64,000 bases of DNA from Roseococcus pinisoli (GTDB taxonomy: Bacteria; Pseudomonadota; Alphaproteobacteria; Acetobacterales; Acetobacteraceae). Each line of letters opens with the position of its first letter. Within the stretch, counting starts at the first letter, position 1. The notes beneath the pieces were generated by a model. That model was not told the DNA's origin. It saw only the letters and a list, made by a program, of their open reading frames with translations, and did no database searches. This document shows, piece by piece, positions 20,236 through 31,677 of this stretch. The stretch is from contig NZ_JAHCDA010000002.1 in assembly GCF_018413645.1 (NCBI RefSeq), positions 310,001 to 374,000 on the forward strand, written 5' to 3'. Made by a program: the position numbers and the translations under genes.

Positions 20236-22459
20236 GCGATTCCTCCGGGAGGACGTTCCGGGCCTCCCCTGGCTGGGGGACGAGATAGACGGTGGCAAGC
20301 GGCGGCAAAAGGACCCGCGCCGAAGCGGGCTGACCGAAGGCAGGCTCGGCGGCGGCCATCACGACACCGCCGTTTCCAAGGCCGGATCCTCCGTATTCCT
20401 GGGCGTCCGTATTGAGCACCTCCCGCCAGGGCCCGGCATGGGGCAGGCCGATCAGCGTCTCAACCCGGGGCACGGGCGTGAAGTTGCAGAGTACCGCAAC
20501 AGGCGGGCCACCCCGCTCATCGAAGCGCAGCCAGGTGAGGACGGAGCGCTGCGTGTCGTCGGCATCGATCCAGGCGAAGCCGCTGGCCTCGCCGTCGAGC
20601 TCGTGCAGCGCCGCGATCTGCCGGTGCAGGCGATTGAGGTCGCGCACCAGGGAGCGGACGCCCTGGTGGCGCGGGTATTGCAGCAGCCGCCAGTCGAGCT
20701 CGCGCGTCTCGGACCATTCGCGCCATTGCCCGAACTCCTGGCCCATGAAAAGCAGCTTCTTGCCGGGATGCCCCCACATGAAGCCGAAATAGGCGCGCAG
20801 ATTGGCGAAGCGCTGCCAGTCGTCGCCGGGCATGCGGCCCAGGATGGTCCCCTTCCCGTGCACGACCTCGTCATGGCTGAGCGGCAGCACGAAATTCTCG
20901 TTGAAGGCATAGACCAGCCCGAAATTCATGAGCCGATGATGCCAGCGCCGGTGCAGCGGGTCCTTGGCGACGTAGCGCAGGGTGTCGTTCATCCACCCCA
21001 TGTTCCACTTGAAGCCGAAGCCCAGGCCGCCCTCGGCCACGGGCGCGGAGACGCCCGTCCAGTCCGTGGCTTCCTCGGCGATCATCAGCGCGCCCGGCGC
21101 CCTCTCCGCGATCATCGCATTGGTGCGGCGCAGGAAGCCCACGGCGTCGCGGTTGTCGTTGCCGCCATCCTCGTTGGGCGCCCATTCGCCGGGGGCGCGC
21201 GAATAGTCGAGATGGATCATCGAGGAGACGGCATCCACCCGCAGCGCATCCGCGTGGAAGCGGTCGAGCCAGAAGAGGGCGTTGGAAGCGAGGAAGGCCT
21301 CCACCTCCTTGCGCCCGTAGTCATAGATCGCGGTCTTCCAGTCCGGATGATAGCCGCGCCGCGGATCGGGATGCTCGTAGAGCGCGGTGCCGTCGAAATG
21401 CGCCAGGCCGTGCGCATCTTCGGGGAAATGCGCGGGCACCCAGTCGAGGATGACGCCGATGCCGGCGGTATGGGCGGCGTCGATGAAGCGGGCGAGGCCC
21501 AGCGGGTCACCCAGCCGCGCGGTGACCGCGAACATGCCGATGGGCTGATAGCCCCAGGAGCCGTCCAGCGGATGCTCCATCACCGGCATGAACTCGATAT
21601 GCGTGAAGCCCATCTCCTTCACGTAGGGGATGAGGTCGGCGGCGAGCTCGTCCCAATGCCAGAAGCGGCCGTCGGGATGGCGCTTCCAGGAAGGGGCGTG
21701 GACCTCGTAGATCGCCATCGGCTCGCGGCGGAAATCCTTCGCTGCCCTTGCCTCCATCCAGGCGGCATCGGTCCATTCGAAGCCGTCGATCCGGGCGACG
21801 ATGCTGGCATTGGCGGGCCGCAGCTCGGCCGCGAAGCCGACCGGATCGGCCTTGAGCGGCAGGACCGTGCCCTGGGCGCCCAGGATCTCGTATTTGTAGG
21901 CCGCGCCCTCGCCGAGGCCGGGCAGGAAGAGCTCCCAGATCCCGGAATCCACGCGGCGGCGCATGGGATGGAGGCGGCCATCCCAGCGATTGAAGGCGCC
22001 CACCACCGAGACGCGTCGTGCATCGGGTGCCCAGACGGCGAAGCGCACGCCCTCGGCGCCCTCATGCTCCAGCAGATGTGCGCCCAGCCGCTCATGCAGG
22101 TGCCGATGCGTGCCCTCGATCAGCAGATGATCGTCGAGCGGGCCGAGCGAAGGGCCGAAGGCGTAGGGATCGAGGATGTCCATCTGGCCGCCGCCTTCGC
22201 GGAGGCGCAGCCGGTAGGGGGCGGGCAGGGCGGTGCCAGGCCGCCGTCCCTCGAAGAAGGCGGTGGCGCCGCGCCGTTCCAGGGGAAGGACCTTGCCGTC
22301 GTCGAAGACGGCCTCCACGGCCTCGGCGCCGGGCCGAAGGGCGCGGATGGCAAGGCCACCCTCAACCTCGTGCGGGCCCAGCACCGCGAAGGGATCGCCA
22401 TGGCGGGCTTCCAGCAGGGCCGCCGCGTCCTCCTCGCTTGTTCGCCAGGCCTCGGGCAT
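20228..22459 (-). CDS. glgB: 1,4-alpha-glucan branching enzyme
   Basis: A 743-residue GH13 enzyme that introduces alpha-1,6 branches. It has an N-terminal CBM48-like region ([15 protein letters not shown]), the catalytic motifs [17 protein letters not shown] (nucleophile Asp), [11 protein letters not shown] (acid/base Glu) and [14 protein letters not shown], and a C-terminal all-beta domain ending near [12 protein letters not shown]. Length is typical of the two-domain N-terminal class. The start lies 4 bp after the glgP stop, so the two are translated from one message. Confidence 0.96.
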
Positions 22460-22463
22460 CGGG

Positions 22464-24947
22464 CTATCCCGGCACCGGTACTTGCCAGATCTCCTGCGCG
22501 TATTCCGCGATGGTGCGATCGGACGAGAACCAGCCCATCCCGGCCGTGTTCAGGATGGCGGAGCGGCCCCATTCGGCCGGCCGTGCCCAGCGCTGCGCGA
22601 CCTTGCGCTGCATGTCGTAGTAGCTGTCGAAATCCGCGGTCACCATGAAGTGATCATTGTCGCGCAGCATCTGGACGAGATCGCGGTAGCGGCCGGGATC
22701 GTCGGGCGAGAAGACGCCGGAAGACAGGGCTTCCAGCGCCTGCTGCAGCCGCGGCGACTGGTCGATGGAATCCTGGCCGCGCCAGCCTTCAGCCCGGCGC
22801 TGCGCCACCTGGTCGGTGGTGAGGCCGAAGATGAAGATGTTCTCGTCGCCCACATGCTCGTGGATCTCGACATTGGCGCCGTCCATCGTGCCGATGGTGA
22901 GCGCGCCGTTGAGCGCCAGCTTCATGTTGCCGGTGCCCGACGCCTCCATGCCCGCCGTCGAGATCTGCTCGGACAGGTCGCAGGCGGGCACGATCATCTC
23001 CGCCAGGGAGACGTTGTAGTTCGGCAGGAAGGCCACCTTCAGCCGGTCGCGGATCGCGGGATCGCGATTGACCCGGCGCGCAATGTCGTGCGCGAGCTTG
23101 ATGATCAGCTTGGCGCGGTGATAGCTCGCCGCCGCCTTGCCGGCGAAGATCTTCACGCGCGGCACGTAATCGCGCTGCGGCTGGGCGTGCATCTCGTTGT
23201 AGAGCGCCACCGTCTCCAGCAGGTTCAGCAGCTGGCGCTTGTATTCGTGGATACGCTTGATCTGCACGTCGAAGAGCGCGCCGGGATCCACGCGGAGGTT
23301 GATCTCGCGGCGGATCAGCGCGGCGAGCGCCTCCTTGTTCGTCCGCTTCACGGCGGCGAAGCGCTGCTGGAAGGTGGTGTCGGTGGCGAGGGGGCGCAGC
23401 GCGGAAAGCGCCGCGGGGCGGTCGAGGAAATCGGGCCCGATGCTCTCCACCAGCAGTTCCGTCAGGCACGGGTTGCACTGCTGCAGCCAGCGCCGGAAGG
23501 TGATGCCGTTGGTCTTGTTGGTGATGCGCCCCGGGAAGAGCGTGTCGAAGTCGTGGAAGACCGTCTTCTTCAGCAGGTCCGAATGGAGCGCTGAGACGCC
23601 GTTCACCTTGTGCGAGCCGACGAAGGCGAGGTTGCCCATGCGCACACGCCGGCCATGCCCTTCCTCGATGAGCGACACCGAGGCCAGCAGGCCGAGGTCG
23701 CCCGGATGCGACGCGGCGACCGTGTCCAGATGGATGGCGTTGATCAGGTAGATGATCTGCATGTGGCGCGGCAGCAACCGCTCCATCAGCGAGACCGGCC
23801 AGGTCTCCAGCGCCTCGGGCAGGAGGGTATGGTTCGTGTAGGAGATGGTGGCCTGCGTGACGCGCCAGGCGTCGTTCCACTCCATGCCATGATCGTCGAG
23901 CAGCAGGCGCATCAGCTCCGCCACGACGATCGCCGGGTGGGTGTCGTTGAGCTGGATGGCGACGCGGTCGGGCAGTGTCTCGAGGCTGCCATAGACGCGG
24001 ACATGGCGGCGGATGAGGTCCTGCAGCGCGGCGGAGCTGAAGAAGAACTCCTGCCGCAGCCGCAGCTCCTGCCCGGCGGGCGTGTCGTCCGAAGGATAGA
24101 GCAGCCGGGAGATGGCCTCCGCGCGCACGCGGTCGGACAGCGCGCCGATATGGTCGCCGCGGTTGAAGGCCTCGATCTGCAGCGGATCGGCCGCGCGGGC
24201 GGACCAGAGGCGCAGCGTGTTCACGTGCTTGCCGCGCCAGCCGACGACCGGCGTGTCATAGGCCACGGCAAGGACCGTCTCGGCCGGCTTCCAGACGTGA
24301 TGCGGCTCGCCATCCTCGCCATTCACCTGCTCGACGGAGCCGCCGAAGCCGATGGGATGGGCGATCTCGGGCCGGGCGAATTCCCAGGGGTTGCCGAATT
24401 CTAGCCAGTTCTCGGGATATTCCTCCTGCCAGCCCTGCCGGATCACCTGGCGGAAGAGCCCGTGATCGTAGCGGATGCCGTAGCCGAAGGCGGGAATCTG
24501 CAGGCTGGCCAGACTCTCCATGAAGCAGGCGGCGAGGCGGCCGAGGCCGCCATTGCCCAGCGCCGCGTCGGGCTCGCTGGCGAAGACCTTCGCCGCGTCG
24601 ACATCGAGCGAGGCAAGCGCCGCCTTCACCTCCGTCGTCAGCAGGAGGTTGGAGATATTCTCGCGCAGCAGCCGCCCGATCAGGAACTCCAGGGAGAGGT
24701 AGTAGACCTGCTTCTGGCCGTGCTCGTAGGTGGACCGCATGTCCTTGAGCCAGGGGGCGACGATCTGGTCGCGCACCGCCAGCGCCGTCGCGATGAACCA
24801 GTCGCGGTCCAGCGCGCCGGCCCGGCTCTTGCCGAGATCGTAGGTCAGCTTGCGCAGGATGGTGTCGTGCAGTGCCTCGCCGTCATGCGGGGAGGGCGGG
24901 ATGTCGCCATGCAGGGCAGGGATGGGGGGCTTGTCGGCTTCGTTCAC
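22464..24947 (-). CDS. glgP: Glycogen/alpha-glucan phosphorylase
   Basis: An 827-residue GT35 phosphorylase that releases glucose-1-phosphate from glycogen. It has YYLSLEFLIGRLL, ALGNGGLGRLAACFMESLA and the pyridoxal-phosphate lysine region EASGTGNMKLALNGALTIGT. I chose the GTG at 24947 because GAGG stands 7 bases upstream; another in-frame GTG at 24995 would add 16 residues but lacks a good site. First of the closely packed glg genes; the sugar kinase gene ends 95 bp upstream on the same strand. Confidence 0.95.
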   Translation of the reverse strand: MNEADKPPIPALHGDIPPSPHDGEALHDTILRKLTYDLGKSRAGALDRDWFIATALAVRDQIVAPWLKDMRSTYEHGQKQVYYLSLEFLIGRLLRENISNLLLTTEVKAALASLDVDAAKVFASEPDAALGNGGLGRLAACFMESLASLQIPAFGYGIRYDHGLFRQVIRQGWQEEYPENWLEFGNPWEFARPEIAHPIGFGGSVEQVNGEDGEPHHVWKPAETVLAVAYDTPVVGWRGKHVNTLRLWSARAADPLQIEAFNRGDHIGALSDRVRAEAISRLLYPSDDTPAGQELRLRQEFFFSSAALQDLIRRHVRVYGSLETLPDRVAIQLNDTHPAIVVAELMRLLLDDHGMEWNDAWRVTQATISYTNHTLLPEALETWPVSLMERLLPRHMQIIYLINAIHLDTVAASHPGDLGLLASVSLIEEGHGRRVRMGNLAFVGSHKVNGVSALHSDLLKKTVFHDFDTLFPGRITNKTNGITFRRWLQQCNPCLTELLVESIGPDFLDRPAALSALRPLATDTTFQQRFAAVKRTNKEALAALIRREINLRVDPGALFDVQIKRIHEYKRQLLNLLETVALYNEMHAQPQRDYVPRVKIFAGKAAASYHRAKLIIKLAHDIARRVNRDPAIRDRLKVAFLPNYNVSLAEMIVPACDLSEQISTAGMEASGTGNMKLALNGALTIGTMDGANVEIHEHVGDENIFIFGLTTDQVAQRRAEGWRGQDSIDQSPRLQQALEALSSGVFSPDDPGRYRDLVQMLRDNDHFMVTADFDSYYDMQRKVAQRWARPAEWGRSAILNTAGMGWFSSDRTIAEYAQEIWQVPVPG

Positions 24948-25042
24948 GGAAGTACCTCGGCTCTGTCCCGGCAATCTATCGGGCGAATGTGGCACGGTTT
25001 GCGCGGCGATCGAAGGATTCGGGCCGCCGCGCCGCCCTTGGG

Positions 25043-25954
25043 CTATCCGGAGAACTCCCGGAGGAATTCCTCCAGCTCCGGCCGGTGGGCGGTGGCGCCG
25101 TCACGCGCGCGGAGCGCGCCCGCGGCGCTGCTGAAGCGGATGGCCTGTTCCATCTCCATCCCCTCCGCCATCGCCAGCGCGAAGGCGCCGTGGAAGACGT
25201 CGCCGGCGCCCGTCGTGTCGCGCGGCTCGATGCGGAAGATGGGCGTCTCGCGGATCGTGTCCTCGCCGCGCAGGATCCAGAGGGTGCTCTTCTCGCCGCG
25301 GGTGACGGCGGCCATGCGCGTGGCGCCCTCGGAGACCGCCTTGCGCAGGGCATCGGGCGGGCGCGCGCCGGAGCCGTAATTGGTGAGGCCGGGGACGGAG
25401 AAGATCGCGTAGCGGACGCGCGGCACGAGGTCGAGCAGCAGGCGGGTCTCGCTGCGCTCGCCGTCCAGCACGGTCGGGATGTCGCGCTTCTCGGCCTCCT
25501 CCAGCGCCACATGGGCGCCTTCCGGCCAGCGCGGATCGCAGAGAACGGCCTTGGCCTCGGCCAGCATGCCGAGCGGCAGCCAGGACGGGTCGGTGCCCAG
25601 GCCGTCGCCGCGATAGCCCATGATGGCGCGCTCGCCGTAGCGGTCCACCAACACGGCGGAGACCGGGCTACGCGCCCCGGCGATCTGCCTCATTCCCGTG
25701 AGGTCGATCTCCTCGCTCCTGAGACCGTCGATCAGCAGATCCGCATTGGAATCGCCGCCAACGCGGCCCCAGAAGGCGGCGCGGCCGCCGAGGCGGGTCA
25801 CCGCGATCGCCGCATTGGCGGCCATGCCGCCGACATTGAGGTGATAGGCCTTGGCCTGGGACTTTGAAGGGGGTTGGGGAACCTCATCCACCCGGAAGAC
25901 GTGATCCGCGACGACATTCCCGAGGCAGACCACAAGGGGCTTGGATGTCTTCAT
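25043..25954 (-). CDS. PfkB/ribokinase-family carbohydrate kinase
   Basis: A 303-residue sugar kinase starting MKTSKPLVVCLGNVVADHVF. The N-terminal GGMAANAAIAVTRLGGRAAFWGRVGGD segment is PfkB signature 1 and the C-terminal DTTGAGDVFHGAFALAMAEG is signature 2, with the catalytic Asp in GAGD. The substrate cannot be read from sequence; ribose, fructose or a deoxy-gluconate are all possible. It lies 95 bp upstream of glgP on the same strand, so it might be co-transcribed with the glycogen genes and feed sugar phosphate into them, which is an inference. It is divergent from an esterase gene. Confidence 0.85.
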   Translation of the reverse strand: MKTSKPLVVCLGNVVADHVFRVDEVPQPPSKSQAKAYHLNVGGMAANAAIAVTRLGGRAAFWGRVGGDSNADLLIDGLRSEEIDLTGMRQIAGARSPVSAVLVDRYGERAIMGYRGDGLGTDPSWLPLGMLAEAKAVLCDPRWPEGAHVALEEAEKRDIPTVLDGERSETRLLLDLVPRVRYAIFSVPGLTNYGSGARPPDALRKAVSEGATRMAAVTRGEKSTLWILRGEDTIRETPIFRIEPRDTTGAGDVFHGAFALAMAEGMEMEQAIRFSSAAGALRARDGATAHRPELEEFLREFSG

Positions 25955-26000
25955 CGGGTGGAGGGTAACCCATTTCTCCGTCGCGTTGAAACCGCGTCGG

Positions 26001-26036
26001 CTCTCCGCAGGCGGAGAGATCTGCTTCAATTTGAAG
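26001..26036. promoter_or_regulatory. Two adjacent palindromes in the kinase/esterase divergent region
   Basis: CTCTCCGCAGGCGGAGAG (26001-26018; 8-bp arms, 2-base spacer) is followed six bases later by CTTCAATTTGAAG (26024-26036; 6-bp arms). They sit 47 bp from the kinase start and ~120 bp from the esterase start, so they could be operators for either gene, or the first could be a leader hairpin. Confidence 0.35.
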
Positions 26037-26157
26037 ACATTGCGGGGATTTCCCGAAGCGCAACCTTCAATATTCGGCCAGGGCGGTGGAGTTGCCGGCC
26101 GCACGGCCGTGGCCAAAGATGCCGGAGACGGATGAAACCAAGAGAAGAGGAGCCCAG

Positions 26158-27102
26158 ATGGCCGCGCCGCTGCACCCCGATTGCCAGGCCTTCCTGAACT
26201 TCGTCGCCGAGCTGGGCCGGCCCCGCTTCGAGGACATGGCCGCGCTGGACACACGAACCCTCTATGCCGCCGGCCGAAAGGTGCTGCAGCCGGCCTCACC
26301 GGATGTGGCCGAGGCACGCGATCTCGTCCTGCCCAGCGGCGTCGCGGCCCGCCTCTACCGGCCGATGGGCAGCACGGCGGGCGAGGCGTTGCCCTGCCTC
26401 GTCTTCGCGCATGGCGGCGGCTGGGTGGTCGGCGACCTCGACACGCACGACCACCCGGCACGGACGATCGCGAACCTCTCCGGCTGCGCGGTGCTGAGCG
26501 TCGACTACCGCCTGGCGCCGGAGCATCGCTTCCCCGCCGCGGTCGAAGATTTCGGCGAGGCGGTGCGCTATGCTGCCGCGAATGCCGTCGCGCTCGGCAT
26601 CGATCCGGATCGCCTGGCCGTGGGCGGCGACAGCGCGGGCGGCAATCTCGCGGCGGTCGCGGCGCTCATGTCCCGCGACGGGAGCCTGCCGCCGCTGCGC
26701 TTCCAGATGCTCATCTACCCCGTCACCGAGATGGCGCAGACCCATGAGAGCTATGTGCGCTTCACCTCGGCCTCGGGCCTGCCGCTCACCGACGCCACCA
26801 TGCGCTGGTTCCGCGACCACTATGCGCCGGAGTCCGCGAGCTGGAACGACTGGCGGGCCTCACCGCTGCGCGCGGCCAGCCTCTCGGGCACGGCGCCCGC
26901 CTTCGTGCTGACGGTGGGCCACGACCCGCTTTGCGACGAGGGGCGCGACTATGCCGCCCGGCTCGAGCGCGAGGGCGTGCGCGTCACGCATGTGCACGCG
27001 GCCGACATGCTGCACGGGGTGATGACCATGAGCGCGATCGTGAAGCCCGCGCTCGGCTACATGGAGATGGCCGCGCGCGCGCTGCGCGACGCCATGGGGT
27101 GA
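26158..27102 (+). CDS. Alpha/beta hydrolase, hormone-sensitive-lipase (HSL) family
   Basis: A 314-residue esterase. It has the HSL oxyanion motif FAHGGGWV, the nucleophile elbow GGDSAGGNLA, and a C-terminal DPLCDEG aspartate and DMLHGV histidine completing the triad. No signal peptide is seen, so it is probably cytoplasmic. The ATG at 26158 follows AGAGGAG. It precedes an SDR gene by 23 bp, so the two likely form an operon processing an ester and its alcohol, which is an inference. Physiological substrate unknown. Confidence 0.87.
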   Translation: MAAPLHPDCQAFLNFVAELGRPRFEDMAALDTRTLYAAGRKVLQPASPDVAEARDLVLPSGVAARLYRPMGSTAGEALPCLVFAHGGGWVVGDLDTHDHPARTIANLSGCAVLSVDYRLAPEHRFPAAVEDFGEAVRYAAANAVALGIDPDRLAVGGDSAGGNLAAVAALMSRDGSLPPLRFQMLIYPVTEMAQTHESYVRFTSASGLPLTDATMRWFRDHYAPESASWNDWRASPLRAASLSGTAPAFVLTVGHDPLCDEGRDYAARLEREGVRVTHVHAADMLHGVMTMSAIVKPALGYMEMAARALRDAMG

Positions 27103-27125
27103 CAACAACAAAGAAGGGAGACGAC

Positions 27126-27914
27126 ATGCGCTTCGAAGGAAAGGTCGCCGTGGTGACCGGTGCCGCCAACGGCATCGGGCTGGAGGCCGCGCAGGCCTTT
27201 GCGCGCGAGGGGGCGAAGGTGCTGCTGGTCGATCGCGACCAGGCCGGCGAAGCGCGGGCCGCCGAGCTCAGGGCCGAAGGGCTCAAGGCGCGCTTCCAGC
27301 AGGCCGACGTGACGAAGTCCGACGAGGTGCGCGCCTATGTTGAGGCCGCCGTCGCGGCCTGGGGCGGCATCCACTGCTTCTTCAACAATGCCGGTATCGA
27401 GGGGAAGGTCGCCGCCATCCATGAGCAGGACGAGGCGGATTTTGACCGGGTGATCGCCGTGAATGTCCGCGGCGTTTTCCTCGGCCTCAAATACGTGCTG
27501 CCGGTGATGATCCGCCAGGGTGGCGGCGCGGTGGTGAACACGGCCTCGACGGCGGCGCTGGTCGGCTCGGCCGGCATCTCGCCCTACACGGCGTCCAAGC
27601 ATGCGGTGCTGGGGCTCACGCGCAGCGTCTCGGGCGAGGTGGCGCGCCAGGGGGTGCGGGTGAACGCCCTCTGCCCGGGCCCGACCGACACGCGGATGAT
27701 CCATTCGCTGGAGGACCAGGCGACCGCGCGTGGCGCCAACGACGCCGCGGAGCGCTACCGCTCGGCCATCCCCCTCGGCCGCTACGCCACGGTGGAGGAG
27801 GTGGTGGCGATGGTGCTGTTCCTCTGCTCCGACGCGGCCACGGCCATCACGGGCGGGCAGTTCCAGGTCGATGGCGGACGTACCGCCTGTCCGGGCGGCA
27901 GCGCGCTGCGCTGA
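27126..27914 (+). CDS. Short-chain dehydrogenase/reductase
   Basis: A 262-residue classical SDR. It has the cofactor motif TGAANGIG, the NNAG motif (FFNNAGIEG), the catalytic Ser in NTASTAALVGSAG and Tyr-X3-Lys in SPYTASKHA. An acidic residue after beta-2 (LLVDRD) suggests preference for NAD(H). The ATG has GGGAG eight bases upstream. It follows the esterase gene within one operon and converges on the nitrile hydratase genes. Substrate not determinable. Confidence 0.88.
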   Translation: MRFEGKVAVVTGAANGIGLEAAQAFAREGAKVLLVDRDQAGEARAAELRAEGLKARFQQADVTKSDEVRAYVEAAVAAWGGIHCFFNNAGIEGKVAAIHEQDEADFDRVIAVNVRGVFLGLKYVLPVMIRQGGGAVVNTASTAALVGSAGISPYTASKHAVLGLTRSVSGEVARQGVRVNALCPGPTDTRMIHSLEDQATARGANDAAERYRSAIPLGRYATVEEVVAMVLFLCSDAATAITGGQFQVDGGRTACPGGSALR

Positions 27915-27929
27915 ACCCGCCCGAGGCGG

Positions 27930-27953
27930 CAGGAGAGGGGGGTCGGCCCCTCT
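27930..27953. terminator. Hairpin between convergent SDR and nitrile hydratase genes
   Basis: A 9-bp perfect stem (GGAGAGGGG at 27930-27938 with CCCCTCTCC at 27945-27953) and six-base loop between two converging stops; no T-run. Probably a shared terminator. Confidence 0.45.
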
Positions 27954-27962
27954 CCCCGTAAC

Positions 27963-28577
27963 TCAGGGCTGCGGCACCTTTTCCAGGTAGCTCTGGAAGA
28001 CGCCGACATGGTTGAAGGCCTCGTCGCTGCTGTCCGGCCAGAGCTCCGTGGAGCGGAAGCGCACGTCGTAGGTCGGCTCCATGGTCGCCTGCATCTGGTG
28101 GGCGCTGGCGTCAGGGAAGGGATAGGGCGGCGAGATTCCGACCACCACGCCCGTCTTGCCGCGGATATAGCCCGGCATGCGGTGGTGCCCCGAAACGAAC
28201 TCGTACTTCACGCGCACCGTCTCGCCGATCTCGAAGGTCTGCGGCGGCGCGGCCATGCGCCCCGGGCCGATCGGCAAAGCGAGCGGAAAGCTGCCCTCGA
28301 CCAGCGCCTCCAGCTCCTCCTTCGTGGTGATGCCCTTTTCCACGGCGAGGGTGGCGGCCGCCGTCAGCACGCGCTCGTAATAGGGCGCACTCATATAGTG
28401 GATCGGCGCCATGCGCTCGATGGCGTGGCGGTACTCGTCCATGTTGTAGATGTGGGTCTTCACCGAGATGGCCGAGAGCGCCCGGGCCAGCGGCTCCCAG
28501 GTTTCGTCATGGGGTTGCGCCGGGTAGGCGATGGTCCCGAAGCCCTGCTTGCCGCCGAGGTCGTGCATGCTGTCCAT
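27963..28577 (-). CDS. nthB: Nitrile hydratase beta subunit
   Basis: A 204-residue protein. The N-terminal MHDLGGKQGFG block, the DEYRHAIERM segment (its Arg matches the arginine that contacts the oxidised claw cysteines in nitrile hydratases), and the C-terminal GETVRVKYEF...GYIRGKTGVVVG and YDVRFRSTELWPD are typical of the family. With the alpha subunit it would hydrate nitriles to amides. It starts 3 bp after the alpha stop. It is full length, so this is not the split beta/alpha arrangement of thiocyanate hydrolase. No activator gene follows; the next gene converges. Confidence 0.87.
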   Translation of the reverse strand: MDSMHDLGGKQGFGTIAYPAQPHDETWEPLARALSAISVKTHIYNMDEYRHAIERMAPIHYMSAPYYERVLTAAATLAVEKGITTKEELEALVEGSFPLALPIGPGRMAAPPQTFEIGETVRVKYEFVSGHHRMPGYIRGKTGVVVGISPPYPFPDASAHQMQATMEPTYDVRFRSTELWPDSSDEAFNHVGVFQSYLEKVPQP

Positions 28578-28580
28578 GGT

Positions 28581-29186
28581 TCAGCCCTTCACCTCGTCGA
28601 GGCGCGAGGCCCCGATCATGGAATCCTGCGTGACGATCGGCGCCAGCTTTTCGGCCGGCCATCCCGCGGTCGCCGGCGGCTGCACGGGCAGCACCATGTA
28701 GCGGGTGTCCGCCGTCGTGTCCCAGACGCGGATCTCGGTCGTGGCCGGCAGGTCGAGGCCCATCTCGCGCAGCGCCGTGCGGGACTCGCGGACCACGCGG
28801 GCGCGGTACTCCATGTCCTTGTACCAGTCGGGCGCGGCGCCGATGATCGTATAGGCGGTGCAGGAGCACAGCGTGCAGACGATCAGGTTGTGGATGTCCG
28901 GCGTGTTCTCCAGCACCACGAGCTGGCGGTGATGCTCCGGGAAGTCGAAGCCCATCTCGCGCGCGGCGGCAGTGCCGTCCTTCAGCATGCGTTCGCGGTA
29001 TTCGGGATCGGTCCAGGCGCGGGCGACCATCTGCCCGCCATTGGAGGTGACCCACTCATCCTCGGCGTGCTCGGTGAATTCCTCGACGAAGCCGTCGGGA
29101 AGGATGCCCTTGCCCTTCAGCACGATCTCGAGGGCCGCGGTACGCTGCTCGATCGGGGCGGGCGGTTTGGGGGCGGTGGCGACCAT
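28581..29186 (-). CDS. nthA: Nitrile hydratase alpha subunit, cobalt-type claw
   Basis: A 201-residue subunit carrying the metal claw VCTLCSC (Cys104, Cys107, Ser108, Cys109); Thr between the first two cysteines is the cobalt-type pattern. Downstream DWYKDMEYRARVVRESR and IRVWDTTADTRYMVLPVQPP are conserved. Odd point: the residues after the claw are TAYTIIG where most nitrile hydratases have a Trp-Pro (YPWPVLG-like), so Tyr112-Thr113 replace them. The ATG at 29186 follows AGAGGAG. An in-frame ATG at 29291 would add 35 residues. It is the first gene after a cobalamin riboswitch. Confidence 0.87.
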   Translation of the reverse strand: MVATAPKPPAPIEQRTAALEIVLKGKGILPDGFVEEFTEHAEDEWVTSNGGQMVARAWTDPEYRERMLKDGTAAAREMGFDFPEHHRQLVVLENTPDIHNLIVCTLCSCTAYTIIGAAPDWYKDMEYRARVVRESRTALREMGLDLPATTEIRVWDTTADTRYMVLPVQPPATAGWPAEKLAPIVTQDSMIGASRLDEVKG

Positions 29187-29365
29187 GGCAGTTTCTCCTC
29201 TTTTATCGTTCGTATCCAGCAGGCTGGGTGAATCGCACAGCAAGGCGGCCGGGCCGAGGGCTGGCGAAGGCTTCAGCCAGGAAATGCACATCCCGAATAC
29301 CTTGCCCCGGTGCACCCCGCCCGGATCCTGAAGGGGTTGCGACGGCGCCCGGGGCGCATCGGCAA

Positions 29366-29570
29366 GGGCAGGTCTCCTGGCTCGCGGGTCGTCGAGGCTG
29401 GCCCACCTTCCCGCGGCATCCGCCGCAGTGGCCCGCCCCAGAACCTGGGAGCGGAGGGGCCAGCGTCTCGCCGCTGACAGTTGCGGGGGCAGCTGCCGAC
29501 TTGCCCGGGCGGAGGAGCATTCCTCCGGCGGACGCACGGCATTCCCTTTTCACCCGCTCGCGCGGGACCA
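29366..29570 (-). promoter_or_regulatory. Cobalamin riboswitch
   Basis: Read on the minus strand, the region holds the hallmark blocks of the AdoCbl-type aptamer in order: GGGTGAAAAGGGAATGCC (around 29536-29555), the core GCTGCCCCCGCAACTGTCAG (around 29472-29492), a variable arm, and the 3' B12 box GAGCCAGGAGACCTGCC (29367-29383). Total ~205 bases. It starts 44 bases after the upstream methyltransferase stop and ends 180 bases before nthA. Just 3' of the aptamer, CCTTGCC (29361-29367) can pair with GGCAAGG (29300-29306), which may be the switching helix. Such elements normally lower expression when cobalamin is high. Confidence 0.93.
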
Positions 29571-29613
29571 TTGCGCTCCCATGCTGGCAAGGCGGCGCCC
29601 GGGGCGCAAGGGC

Positions 29614-30327
29614 TCAGAGCGCGTGGCCGTCCCGCAGCACGGCGTGGCTGGCGGGGGTGGCCGCGCCGTCTGCCTCGTGCAGCACGAGGCCCGGCAGCAC
29701 CTCGTCGGCGCCGCGGCCGCCCTTGCGGGCGCGGAGGAGGATGCGCTTGGCCGGAACGCCGGCCCGCGGCCAGAGCGGCAGCAGCCGCACCGAACCGCAG
29801 CCGGCCTCCCGCAGGCCCGCGACCGCCTCGGCCAGCCGCGCGGCGGGCAGCACCAGCGAGACCGTCCCCTTGTGCCGGACGGGGCGGGCGAGGGCGGCGA
29901 TCCAGGCCGAAAGCGGCGCGTCCTCATGGGCCGCCTGCCGCCGCCCCGCATCCGGAGAGGCCGTGCCCGCGCTCCAGTAGGGAGGATTGGAGAGGGCATG
30001 GTGCATGGGCGGCAAGGCGGGCAGGGCGCGGCAATCCCCGGCCAGGATCCGGGCGTCCACACCGTTCAGGCCGGCATTCCGCTCGGCCAGGGCCGCCAGT
30101 TCGGGATCGCGCTCCACGGCGGTGACGGCGATGCCGGGCAGGCGCGCCGCGAGGCACAGGAAGGCCGCCCCGGTCCCGGCGCCGAATTCCAGCACCGATT
30201 CGCCGGCTCGCGCCGGAACGAAGGCCGCCAGCAGCACCGGGTCGATGGCCGCGCGGAAGCCATGGCGTGGCTGGAGCAGCCGCACCCGTCCCCCAAGCAG
30301 GGCATCCTCGGTGAGGTCGTCAGACAC
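29614..30327 (-). CDS. TrmN6-like N6-adenine methyltransferase
   Basis: A 237-residue class I SAM-dependent methyltransferase with LEFGAGTGAAFLCLA (motif I) and the N6-adenine motif SNPPYW (NPPY). The N-terminal LLGGRVRLLQPRHGFRAAIDPVLLA block is typical of the tRNA1(Val) A37 methyltransferase family. A GTG at 30327 overlaps the end of the DUF2007 gene by 8 bases, supporting that start and a two-gene operon. The exact RNA substrate in this lineage is inferred from the family. Confidence 0.82.
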   Translation of the reverse strand: MSDDLTEDALLGGRVRLLQPRHGFRAAIDPVLLAAFVPARAGESVLEFGAGTGAAFLCLAARLPGIAVTAVERDPELAALAERNAGLNGVDARILAGDCRALPALPPMHHALSNPPYWSAGTASPDAGRRQAAHEDAPLSAWIAALARPVRHKGTVSLVLPAARLAEAVAGLREAGCGSVRLLPLWPRAGVPAKRILLRARKGGRGADEVLPGLVLHEADGAATPASHAVLRDGHAL

Positions 30328-30517
30328 CCGCGTCCCGCAGCAGGCGTCGCGCCCGGCCGGCATGCTCGGCGGCGACGGCCAGCCGGCGCGGGAAGATCGA
30401 CAGGCCAAGGCCTACGACATTGTGGTCGAGCTGCACCGCCTCGATCCCCGCATCCCGCAGCAAGGCCGCCAGGAATTGGATTCGAATGGGATCGGCGTCC
30501 TCGGCGACCACGTTCAT
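30320..30517 (-). CDS. DUF2007-family small protein
   Basis: A 65-residue protein, MNVVAEDADPIRIQFLAALL onward, with the pattern of a small alpha-beta fold (two short strands and two helices) seen in DUF2007 proteins, which resemble signal-transducing PII-like small domains and have no firm function. It overlaps the downstream methyltransferase start and is divergent from the polyprenyl synthase gene; I recall this neighbourhood from other alphaproteobacteria. The start ATG at 30517 was chosen on length and family fit. Confidence 0.75.
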   Translation of the reverse strand: MNVVAEDADPIRIQFLAALLRDAGIEAVQLDHNVVGLGLSIFPRRLAVAAEHAGRARRLLRDAGV

Positions 30518-30641
30518 CGCGGGAAATCCTTGATTTGCCTCGCCTTGCGGCCACATCTGCTGCTCGGGTATCCTGCATCGTCCCGGGCCGGGTCAAGTAG
30601 GCCGGACCCAAGGCGGACATGAACTTCAGGGGTTAGAGCGA

Positions 30642-31673
30642 GTGGCTGGTGCGATCGACGCGAAACGGGACGGCGCGCGGCAGAAGGATCATGGGGAAGG
30701 GGCCCTTACCCGACTCATGGACCTCGTCGCCGAGGACCTGTCCGCCTGCAACACGCTCATCGTCGAGCGCATGCACAGCCATGTCGCCCTCATCCCGCAG
30801 CTGGCGGCGCATATCGTCGCGGCCGGCGGGAAGCGGCTGCGGCCGCTGCTGACGCTCGCGGCTTCCCGCCTCTGCGGCTACGAGGGGGTTCGTCACGTCT
30901 CGCTCGCCGCCTGCGTGGAATTCATCCACACCGCGACGCTGCTGCATGACGACGTGGTGGACGAGAGCGAGCTGCGGCGGGGCCAGGCCAGCGCCAATGC
31001 GCTCTTCGGCAACAAGCCCTCCGTCCTCGTCGGCGATTTCCTCTTCGCCCGCGCCTTCCAGCTGATGATCGAGGATAAGAGCCTCGAGACACTGCGCATC
31101 CTGGCCGCGGCCTCGGCGACGCTGGCCGAGGGCGAGGTGCTGCAGCTCATCACCCAGAACGACCTCTCCACCACCGAGGCCCAGTATCTTGAGGTCATCG
31201 AGGGCAAGACGGCGGCGCTCTTCGCGGCCGCGACCCGCCTCGGCGCCGTGGTGGCCGACCGTCCGCAGGCCGAGGCGGAGGCGCTGGACGCCTATGGTCA
31301 CAACCTCGGCATCGCCTTCCAGCTGGTGGACGACGCCCTCGACTACTCGGCCGAGCAGGCGAGCCTCGGCAAGACCGTGGGCGACGACTTCCGCGAGGGG
31401 AAGATGACCCTTCCGGTGCTGCTGGCCTTCCACGACGGCGACACGGCCGAGCAGGCCTTCTGGCGCCGGACCCTGGAGGAAGGCGAGCAGGGCGAGGCTG
31501 ATCTTGGAGAGGCGCAGCGGCTGCTGGAGCGGCACAACGGTATCGGCCGCACGATCGACCGCGCCGAGACCTACGGCGAGGCGGCGATCCGGGCCCTCGA
31601 CATCTTCCCGGCGAACGAGGCGAAGCTCGCGCTGATCGACGTTGTCCGCTTCTGCATCGACCGCGCGAGGTAG
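30642..31673 (+). CDS. ispB: Polyprenyl diphosphate synthase (octaprenyl/decaprenyl type)
   Basis: A 343-residue trans-isoprenyl diphosphate synthase with a GTG start. Both aspartate-rich motifs are present: LLHDDVVDES (first, DDxxD) and FQLVDDALDY (second). GGKRLRPLLTL near the N-terminus binds the pyrophosphate. It makes the long isoprenoid tail of ubiquinone, serving the respiratory chain that includes the bc1 complex encoded earlier in the window. The residue before the first motif suggests a long-chain product, but chain length cannot be fixed by reading. The sulfurtransferase gene starts 4 bp downstream. Confidence 0.92.
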   Translation: MAGAIDAKRDGARQKDHGEGALTRLMDLVAEDLSACNTLIVERMHSHVALIPQLAAHIVAAGGKRLRPLLTLAASRLCGYEGVRHVSLAACVEFIHTATLLHDDVVDESELRRGQASANALFGNKPSVLVGDFLFARAFQLMIEDKSLETLRILAAASATLAEGEVLQLITQNDLSTTEAQYLEVIEGKTAALFAAATRLGAVVADRPQAEAEALDAYGHNLGIAFQLVDDALDYSAEQASLGKTVGDDFREGKMTLPVLLAFHDGDTAEQAFWRRTLEEGEQGEADLGEAQRLLERHNGIGRTIDRAETYGEAAIRALDIFPANEAKLALIDVVRFCIDRAR

Positions 31674-31677
31674 AGCC

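Follow-up and report, generated by a model that had tools for sequence, protein, structure and literature searches.

The window, a 64,000-nt stretch of the Roseococcus pinisoli genome, carries a cobalamin riboswitch directly upstream of nthA and nthB, which encode the two subunits of a nitrile hydratase that is probably of the iron type. The best explanation, to which we give a little short of an even chance, is that nthAB encodes an iron nitrile hydratase isozyme repressed by B12, following the metE/metH logic, with a cobalt-claw enzyme of the same genome as its counterpart. The features of the locus are as follows (positions of the window).

29350-29587, minus strand: cobalamin riboswitch aptamer (RF00174; 88.4 bits, model 1-189).
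29483-29488, minus strand: L5 motif CCCCGC, the proposed kissing-loop partner (sequence).
29305-29328, minus strand: expression-platform hairpin P13/L13, loop GCGGGG complementary to L5 (same in 5 of 5 aligned copies).
29299-29306, minus strand: first Shine-Dalgarno-like stretch GGCAAGGT, placed as in other copies (by eye).
29289-29291, minus strand: ATG at the start position nearer the riboswitch, 35 codons upstream of nthA and in its frame (by eye).
29191-29202, minus strand: second, strong Shine-Dalgarno (GGAG) of nthA, predicted to be mostly unpaired (mean pairing probability 0.26).
28581-29186, minus strand: nthA, nitrile hydratase alpha, 201 aa, claw VCTLCSCTA, probably Fe-type (Pfam, NCBIfam, PDB kinship, tree).
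27963-28577, minus strand: nthB, nitrile hydratase beta, 204 aa (Pfam, NCBIfam, PDB kinship).
27915-29613, minus strand: riboswitch, leader, nthA and nthB together, flanked by a convergent SDR gene and a methyltransferase gene of weak TrmN likeness; missing from the genus mates compared (genus-mate comparison).

The riboswitch was the only one of its kind found by cmscan over the whole window. It matched the full RF00174 model at 88.4 bits, against a gathering cut-off of 31.5, with an E value of 1.7e-20 over the window; given this score, E value and full-length match, it is near certain from its sequence to be a genuine cobalamin riboswitch, and a chance match is ruled out by the score together with the conserved platform. 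It was also considered as a part of the upstream methyltransferase gene, which lies on the same strand, and this was rejected since the gene ends before the riboswitch. An earlier note, made from the letters of the window, had read a cobalamin aptamer on the minus strand before nthA and had proposed the covariance-model run that now bears it out. Of the span 29186..29570 that it had assigned to the riboswitch, the aptamer stands, at 29350-29587, whereas 29187-29349 is expression platform and leader.

The conserved core and the L5-L13 complementarity are both present in the sequence of the window riboswitch, the labels L5 for CCCCGC and P13/L13 for the hairpin being those that we take over from the cobalamin riboswitch literature. 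The P13/L13 sequence, GGATCCGGGCGGGGTGCACCGGGG, shows no difference among the five aligned riboswitch copies, and both CCCCGC and GCGGGG are retained in the 21 genus riboswitches inspected, of 44 found in the genus. Both motifs occur in 23 of 28 riboswitch rows, the exceptions being L039, L059, L065, L085 and L111. In a comparison with four genus copies, which agree with one another in 234 columns, 14 changes in these columns (one of them an insertion) are private to the window riboswitch. The approximately 66 columns that Rfam prints in capitals as conserved contain none of these changes (P about 0.008, with these columns counted by hand from the Rfam alignment and all assumed to lie among the 234). 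None falls in 101 self-chosen core columns either, a set for which the P value was dropped as circular.

The leader offers two possible start sites. The ATG at 29291 matches the position of the start codons after the riboswitches at L003, L004, L171 and L156 (by eye). The ribosome site of nthA itself is strong and mostly unpaired, and lies at most 113 bases past the riboswitch block; it could escape translational control by the riboswitch, so that control may have to run through transcription (e.g., Rho). Distance alone is no objection to control of nthA, given that metE of the same genome starts 118 bases after its riboswitch. The leader was analyzed by plain folding with accessibility, which cannot model the kissing loop. 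A scan for intrinsic terminators and consensus promoters found neither; a TTGCGC/CAGCAT-like pair was seen by eye only, just 3′ of the methyltransferase gene.

No gene lies between the riboswitch and nthA, and nthB follows nthA after 3 bases; the earlier note had described the same order, with nthA as the first gene, its VCTLCSC claw, and nthB straight after it. Membership of the nitrile hydratase family is indicated by PF02979 (233.6 bits) together with the CxLCSC claw. The beta subunit scored 169.2 bits with TIGR03888, above the cut-off of 152.2, and the alpha subunit 237.5 bits with TIGR01323, slightly below the cut-off of 249.85. Identity as a thiocyanate hydrolase was rejected (TIGR03887, 163 bits vs. 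a cut-off of 291).

The surroundings of the locus were compared with those in genus mates. In G093 and G210 the SDR and methyltransferase genes stand end to end, with homology to the window at 21171-27907 and 29666-31667 (G093) and at 26167-27917 and 29614-31674 (G210). In G174 and G201 about 1.8 kb separates the same two genes, with a flavin-monooxygenase-like ORF (by eye) and neither nthAB nor a B12 box. Given this varying gene content in four genus mates, the riboswitch-nthAB unit of about 1.7 kb is an insert of the window lineage or a replacement. No riboswitch was found beside the methyltransferase gene in the 16 genus mates (of 20) where that gene was found, and the absence in genus mates rules out an old arrangement conserved at this place. 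The flavin-monooxygenase-like gene (by eye; L166:7362-8996 and L167:7331-8998) occupies the place of riboswitch-nthAB in two genus mates, so the junction may be a gene-exchange spot.

The two parts of the unit have different relatives. The stretch 29593-29299, comprising aptamer and platform, is almost a copy of riboswitches found at loci of the B12 type in the same genome, G093 and G211 (with DUF6925 genes or, named by eye, TonB-receptor-like ones); identity to the genus copies is 85-88% by BLAST and 83-87% in the alignment, and this homology ends 113 bases short of the nthA start codon. Relatives of nthA are patchily distributed: with the own genome counted each time, they occur in 5 of 397 family genomes at E <= 1e-65 and, at E <= 1e-60, in 5 of 385 class genomes and 1 of 398 phylum genomes. 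From this distribution, nthAB was probably gained by horizontal transfer. A plasmid search returned 72 records matching parts of the cassette, none of which covers 80% of it.

Comparison with related nitrile hydratase loci covered the best 80 of 111. On the strand of nthA and directly ahead of it, a riboswitch was found in none of these 80 and in the window only (motif script on all 80 loci, Rfam on 20; several loci have less than 700 bases before nthA, L088 is without an nthA ORF, and L009 = L071, L176 = L038 and L177 = L042 are duplicates). The earlier note had held that absence of the aptamer from orthologous nthA loci would speak against its proposal, and on this point the comparison goes against it: the exact arrangement looks lineage-specific. 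In flanks of up to 6 kb, a riboswitch was present in 7 of the best 80, all seven confirmed by Rfam. By contrast, none was found within 6 kb of a nitrile hydratase at 94 other places, spread over 73 genomes, the nearest on the same contig being 55 kb off (the claw was read in 29 of the 94, L006 and L010-L037; the same-contig comparison was made by hand, one of two with stricter filters). The difference gives a Fisher P of 0.0037, or 0.018 with kin collapsed to five loci; the seven include the kin pairs L059/L065 and L085/L111, and the enrichment rests on few independent loci. The chance expectation is 0.4 near loci, from 0.49 riboswitches per Mb, a density that is that of this genus and not of the loci's taxa.

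The near loci differ in their arrangement. In L039 and L043 the nthAB locus faces a riboswitch-metE gene. In L048, a MAG labeled Bradyrhizobium that also carries a Co-claw nitrile hydratase, one strand holds a riboswitch, metE, a small ORF, a Rieske protein gene, nthA and nthB, with gaps of less than 10 bases from metE to the Rieske gene and about 95 bases before nthA. L059 has nthA, nthB, DUF6925, a riboswitch and a B12-receptor-like gene, and L065 has the same order, whereas the riboswitch precedes a CbiX/2Fe-2S protein gene in L085 and an AMP-ligase gene in L111. That cobalamin riboswitches were recruited in at least two lineages to swap cobalt for iron nitrile hydratase, with B12 gauging cellular cobalt, is possible, and we lean somewhat against it; if true, this would be, to our knowledge, the first case of a riboswitch running a metal swap for an enzyme of non-corrin cobalt.

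An accidental capture, in which the promoter-riboswitch unit of a B12-uptake-type operon landed before nthAB with no physiological logic and with weak or neutral regulation, is a rather unlikely account of the locus. It would fit an arrangement seen in one genome, with 0 of 16 genus mates having a riboswitch at the methyltransferase gene, at a junction whose gene content varies anyway; it would also fit the near identity of the block to the genus's own riboswitches, the independent ribosome site of nthA, and the -10-like stretch, which has one base fewer in the window than in G093 (by eye). Against it, core and platform are unaltered while 14 other columns changed, B12 riboswitches occur more often near this enzyme clade than near other nitrile hydratases (7/80 vs. 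0/94), and in a second lineage nthAB ends a riboswitch-metE run.

The earlier note had called the enzyme cobalt-type, a label that its sequence probably does not sustain: the claw is CSC-Thr and not CSC-Tyr, both subunits are nearest to 4fm4/4zgd, and the gene order is alpha-beta. The enzyme is quite probably of the Fe type, and iron is likely in its active site. We take 4fm4/4zgd to be the Fe-type nitrile hydratase of Comamonas testosteroni Ni1, and the 2ahj/2qdy group to be that of Rhodococcus. As shown by phmmer against the PDB, the alpha subunit matched 4fm4/4zgd first (250/247 bits), then the 2ahj/2qdy/1ahj group (205-208 bits), and then cobalt-named and other chains (168-204 bits), among which the cobalt-named chain 4ob1 (204 bits) nearly ties with the Rhodococcus group. 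For the beta subunit the gap is wide: 239/238 bits for 4fm4/4zgd, 153-155 for the 2ahj/2qdy/1ahj group, and 76-98 for cobalt-named and other chains. An excerpt of PMC7329996 describes the C. testosteroni Ni1 enzyme as Fe-type and active in E. coli without its activator, and mentions an activator gene in the C. testosteroni genome.

Within the clade of the window enzyme, the claw ends in CSCTA in 81 of 81 rows (the window included; L009 and L071 are one locus), and the two residues in front are Thr-Leu in 77, Ser-Leu in 2 and Thr-Gln in 2; CSCSA, with a terminal Ser, was read in one more relative, L209. When set against the Fe-type claw C-S-L-C-S-C-T, the clade has the terminal Thr in 81/81 rows, and Ser is replaced by Thr in 79/81. 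Part of PMC2667541 gives CTLCSCY as the cobalt-binding and CSLCSCT as the iron claw, so the mixed claw CTLCSCT of the clade belongs in neither metal class as given there; the window enzyme, with CSC-Thr, lacks the C-Tyr ending of CTLCSCY.

Gene order also points to iron. The usual orders are alpha-beta for Fe-type and beta-alpha for Co-type enzymes, according to a portion of PMC7193024; the beta-alpha-activator order, which is usual but not strict for the Co type, is absent from the window locus. Of the 82 loci in the clade of the window enzyme, 74 have alpha-beta and 8 are unclear. The 44 Co-claw loci divide into 28 with beta-alpha and 16 scored as alpha-beta, and these 16 may include beta-like activators matched by the NthB query. 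In the tree, 29 Fe-claw rows (hand-chosen from 83, and with a long-branch warning) and 44 Co-claw rows are parted by one branch with 100/100 support. The C. testosteroni Ni1 enzyme is one of the closest known systems: it is the best match of both window subunits and shares the C[ST]LCSCTA claw and the alpha-beta order. It differs in having Ser in the claw where the window enzyme has Thr, and the window genes have a riboswitch upstream.

These data bear on the model of the earlier note, in which a cobalt-type nitrile hydratase is tied to B12 and free cobalt is shared between corrin and hydratase; we consider this model improbable. The first half of the claw, CTLC, is indeed that of Co-type enzymes (PMC2667541, in part), and 4ob1 comes near the Rhodococcus group for alpha. 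The closest solved relatives of both subunits, though, are presumed Fe-type, the claw ending and gene order are not the usual ones of Co-type enzymes, and no third nth-like ORF was found at the window locus. Moreover, a cobalt enzyme made under B12 shortage would be expected to worsen that shortage.

A candidate cobalt-claw counterpart is present in the same genome. The second nitrile hydratase, at C1:851812, has the claw VCTLCSCYP (cobalt type) and no riboswitch. Against the PDB, four cobalt-named chains came first and 4fm4 was 32nd of 36; since most other cobalt-named chains come after the Rhodococcus chains presumed to be Fe-type (179-181 bits), the PDB ranking alone is a weak test for this enzyme. 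Its beta subunit is spread over two overlapping ORFs (L175:5774-6992), by a true split or a frameshift, and this enzyme may therefore not share substrates with the window enzyme; the beta subunit is split in two in thiocyanate hydrolase as well. Among 21 distinct, hand-chosen Fe-clade genomes (24 genome handles, from 20 of the 80 loci plus 4), 15 have at least two nitrile hydratases, with a Co claw read in 13 of these 15; the remaining six, all betaproteobacterial, have one only, of the Fe type. The same genome also has metH and a riboswitch before metE, and metE/metH is a known pair of a B12-independent and a B12-dependent isozyme.

The explanation by a B12-repressed iron isozyme would thus run as follows. 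A B12-responsive riboswitch unit, as found at the B12-uptake-type loci of the genus, would have been placed before a probably horizontally acquired nthAB, whose product, an iron-type nitrile hydratase like that of C. testosteroni Ni1, would use no cobalt. When cobalamin is plentiful, it would bind to the aptamer, and the L5-L13 kissing loop would close the P13 hairpin beside the ribosome site, so that nthAB is repressed. Under a shortage of cobalamin, which usually means one of cobalt too, nthAB would be made. The second nitrile hydratase, with its cobalt claw and no riboswitch, would serve when cobalt is at hand, and we infer that the two enzymes overlap in their substrates. The plan would copy the metE/metH pairing of the same genome, with B12 as the gauge of cobalt. 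The earlier note had tied B12 status to cobalt use. In that, the riboswitch-nthAB arrangement is real and a link between cobalt and B12 is the best reading, but the premise of a cobalt enzyme probably falls, iron being indicated. Because homology, claw and gene order point to iron, the logic is reversed, and a cobalt-free isozyme would be switched on when B12 is short.

It is hardly probable that the enzyme instead serves B12 or cyanide metabolism (e.g., against cyanide or nitriles that harm B12 enzymes or arrive when corrinoids are taken up) and for that reason shares its regulation with B12 uptake and metE: some relatives adjoin a B12-receptor-like gene, DUF6925, a CbiX/2Fe-2S protein gene, or metE or MetE-like genes, but neighbors change between lineages, none of these genes appears in the gene lists of most of the loci (best 80 of 111), and we know of no nitrile step in corrin metabolism.

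The B12-repressed iron isozyme shares with riboswitch-metE and riboswitch-nrd systems the aptamer and platform logic, and would likewise pair an enzyme free of cobalt and B12 with a cobalt-dependent one in the genome. It differs in that the counterpart, the Co-claw enzyme with its split beta subunit, would use non-corrin cobalt, B12 being a stand-in for cobalt. Targets of B12 riboswitches, as given in part of PMC3766115, are B12 synthesis, B12 transport, cobalt transport and isozymes of B12-dependent enzymes, and the available main text of that paper has no word starting with “nitrile”. In CblA of Rhodococcus rhodochrous (PMC7689651, in part), metal status likewise governs a nitrile hydratase, but CblA is a protein repressor that responds to cobalt and nickel and derepresses a Co-type enzyme, whereas the window would have an RNA sensing B12. 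The available part of PMC8400943 has nthAB and riboswitch-metE as separate items. A riboswitch before a nitrile hydratase is not described in the open-licence literature searched, which included parts of PMC7689651, PMC2770081, PMC2667541, PMC8400943 and PMC10604320; it may be described elsewhere.

If this explanation is true, an RNA that senses B12 would govern an enzyme that does without B12 and probably also without cobalt, and B12 would act as a general signal of cobalt status. The metE/metH rule would be extended from corrin cobalt to free cobalt, and there would be a direct way to test how bacteria rank their uses of cobalt. It would also bear on the choice of host and media for industrial nitrile hydratases.

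Several further observations were made on B12-linked genes. The genome (G000) has five cobalamin riboswitches, vs. one to three in its 20 genus mates. At C5:1183716-1186645 a riboswitch-metE unit is followed by riboswitch-DUF6925-TonB-receptor-like and transporter-like genes (by eye), and at L003:1739-2574 of the same genome a methyltransferase-like ORF (by eye, no Pfam match) lies between the riboswitch and a TonB-receptor-like gene. DUF6925 (PF21973) was found at L004:1959-2954, L059:7199-8131 and L065:7241-8185, the last assigned by clustering; in two distant lineages it has cobalamin riboswitches and TonB-receptor-like genes as its neighbors, which points to a role in B12 uptake. Short MetE-like genes (PRK09121 and PRK06520) lie directly upstream of Fe-type nthA at L050:4849-5868 and L081:4762-5898, two loci of betaproteobacterial MAGs, neither of which has a riboswitch. 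The metE neighborhood was counted without a control set, and the cluster search gave seven loci, of which L060 and L074 were dropped as not confirmed by eye. In Rhodovarius (L071:3342-5945; L009/L174), ABC-transporter genes, including one for an SsuA/NMT1-like binding protein (by eye), precede Fe-type nthAB, and this transporter is perhaps the uptake system for the nitrile of nthAB.
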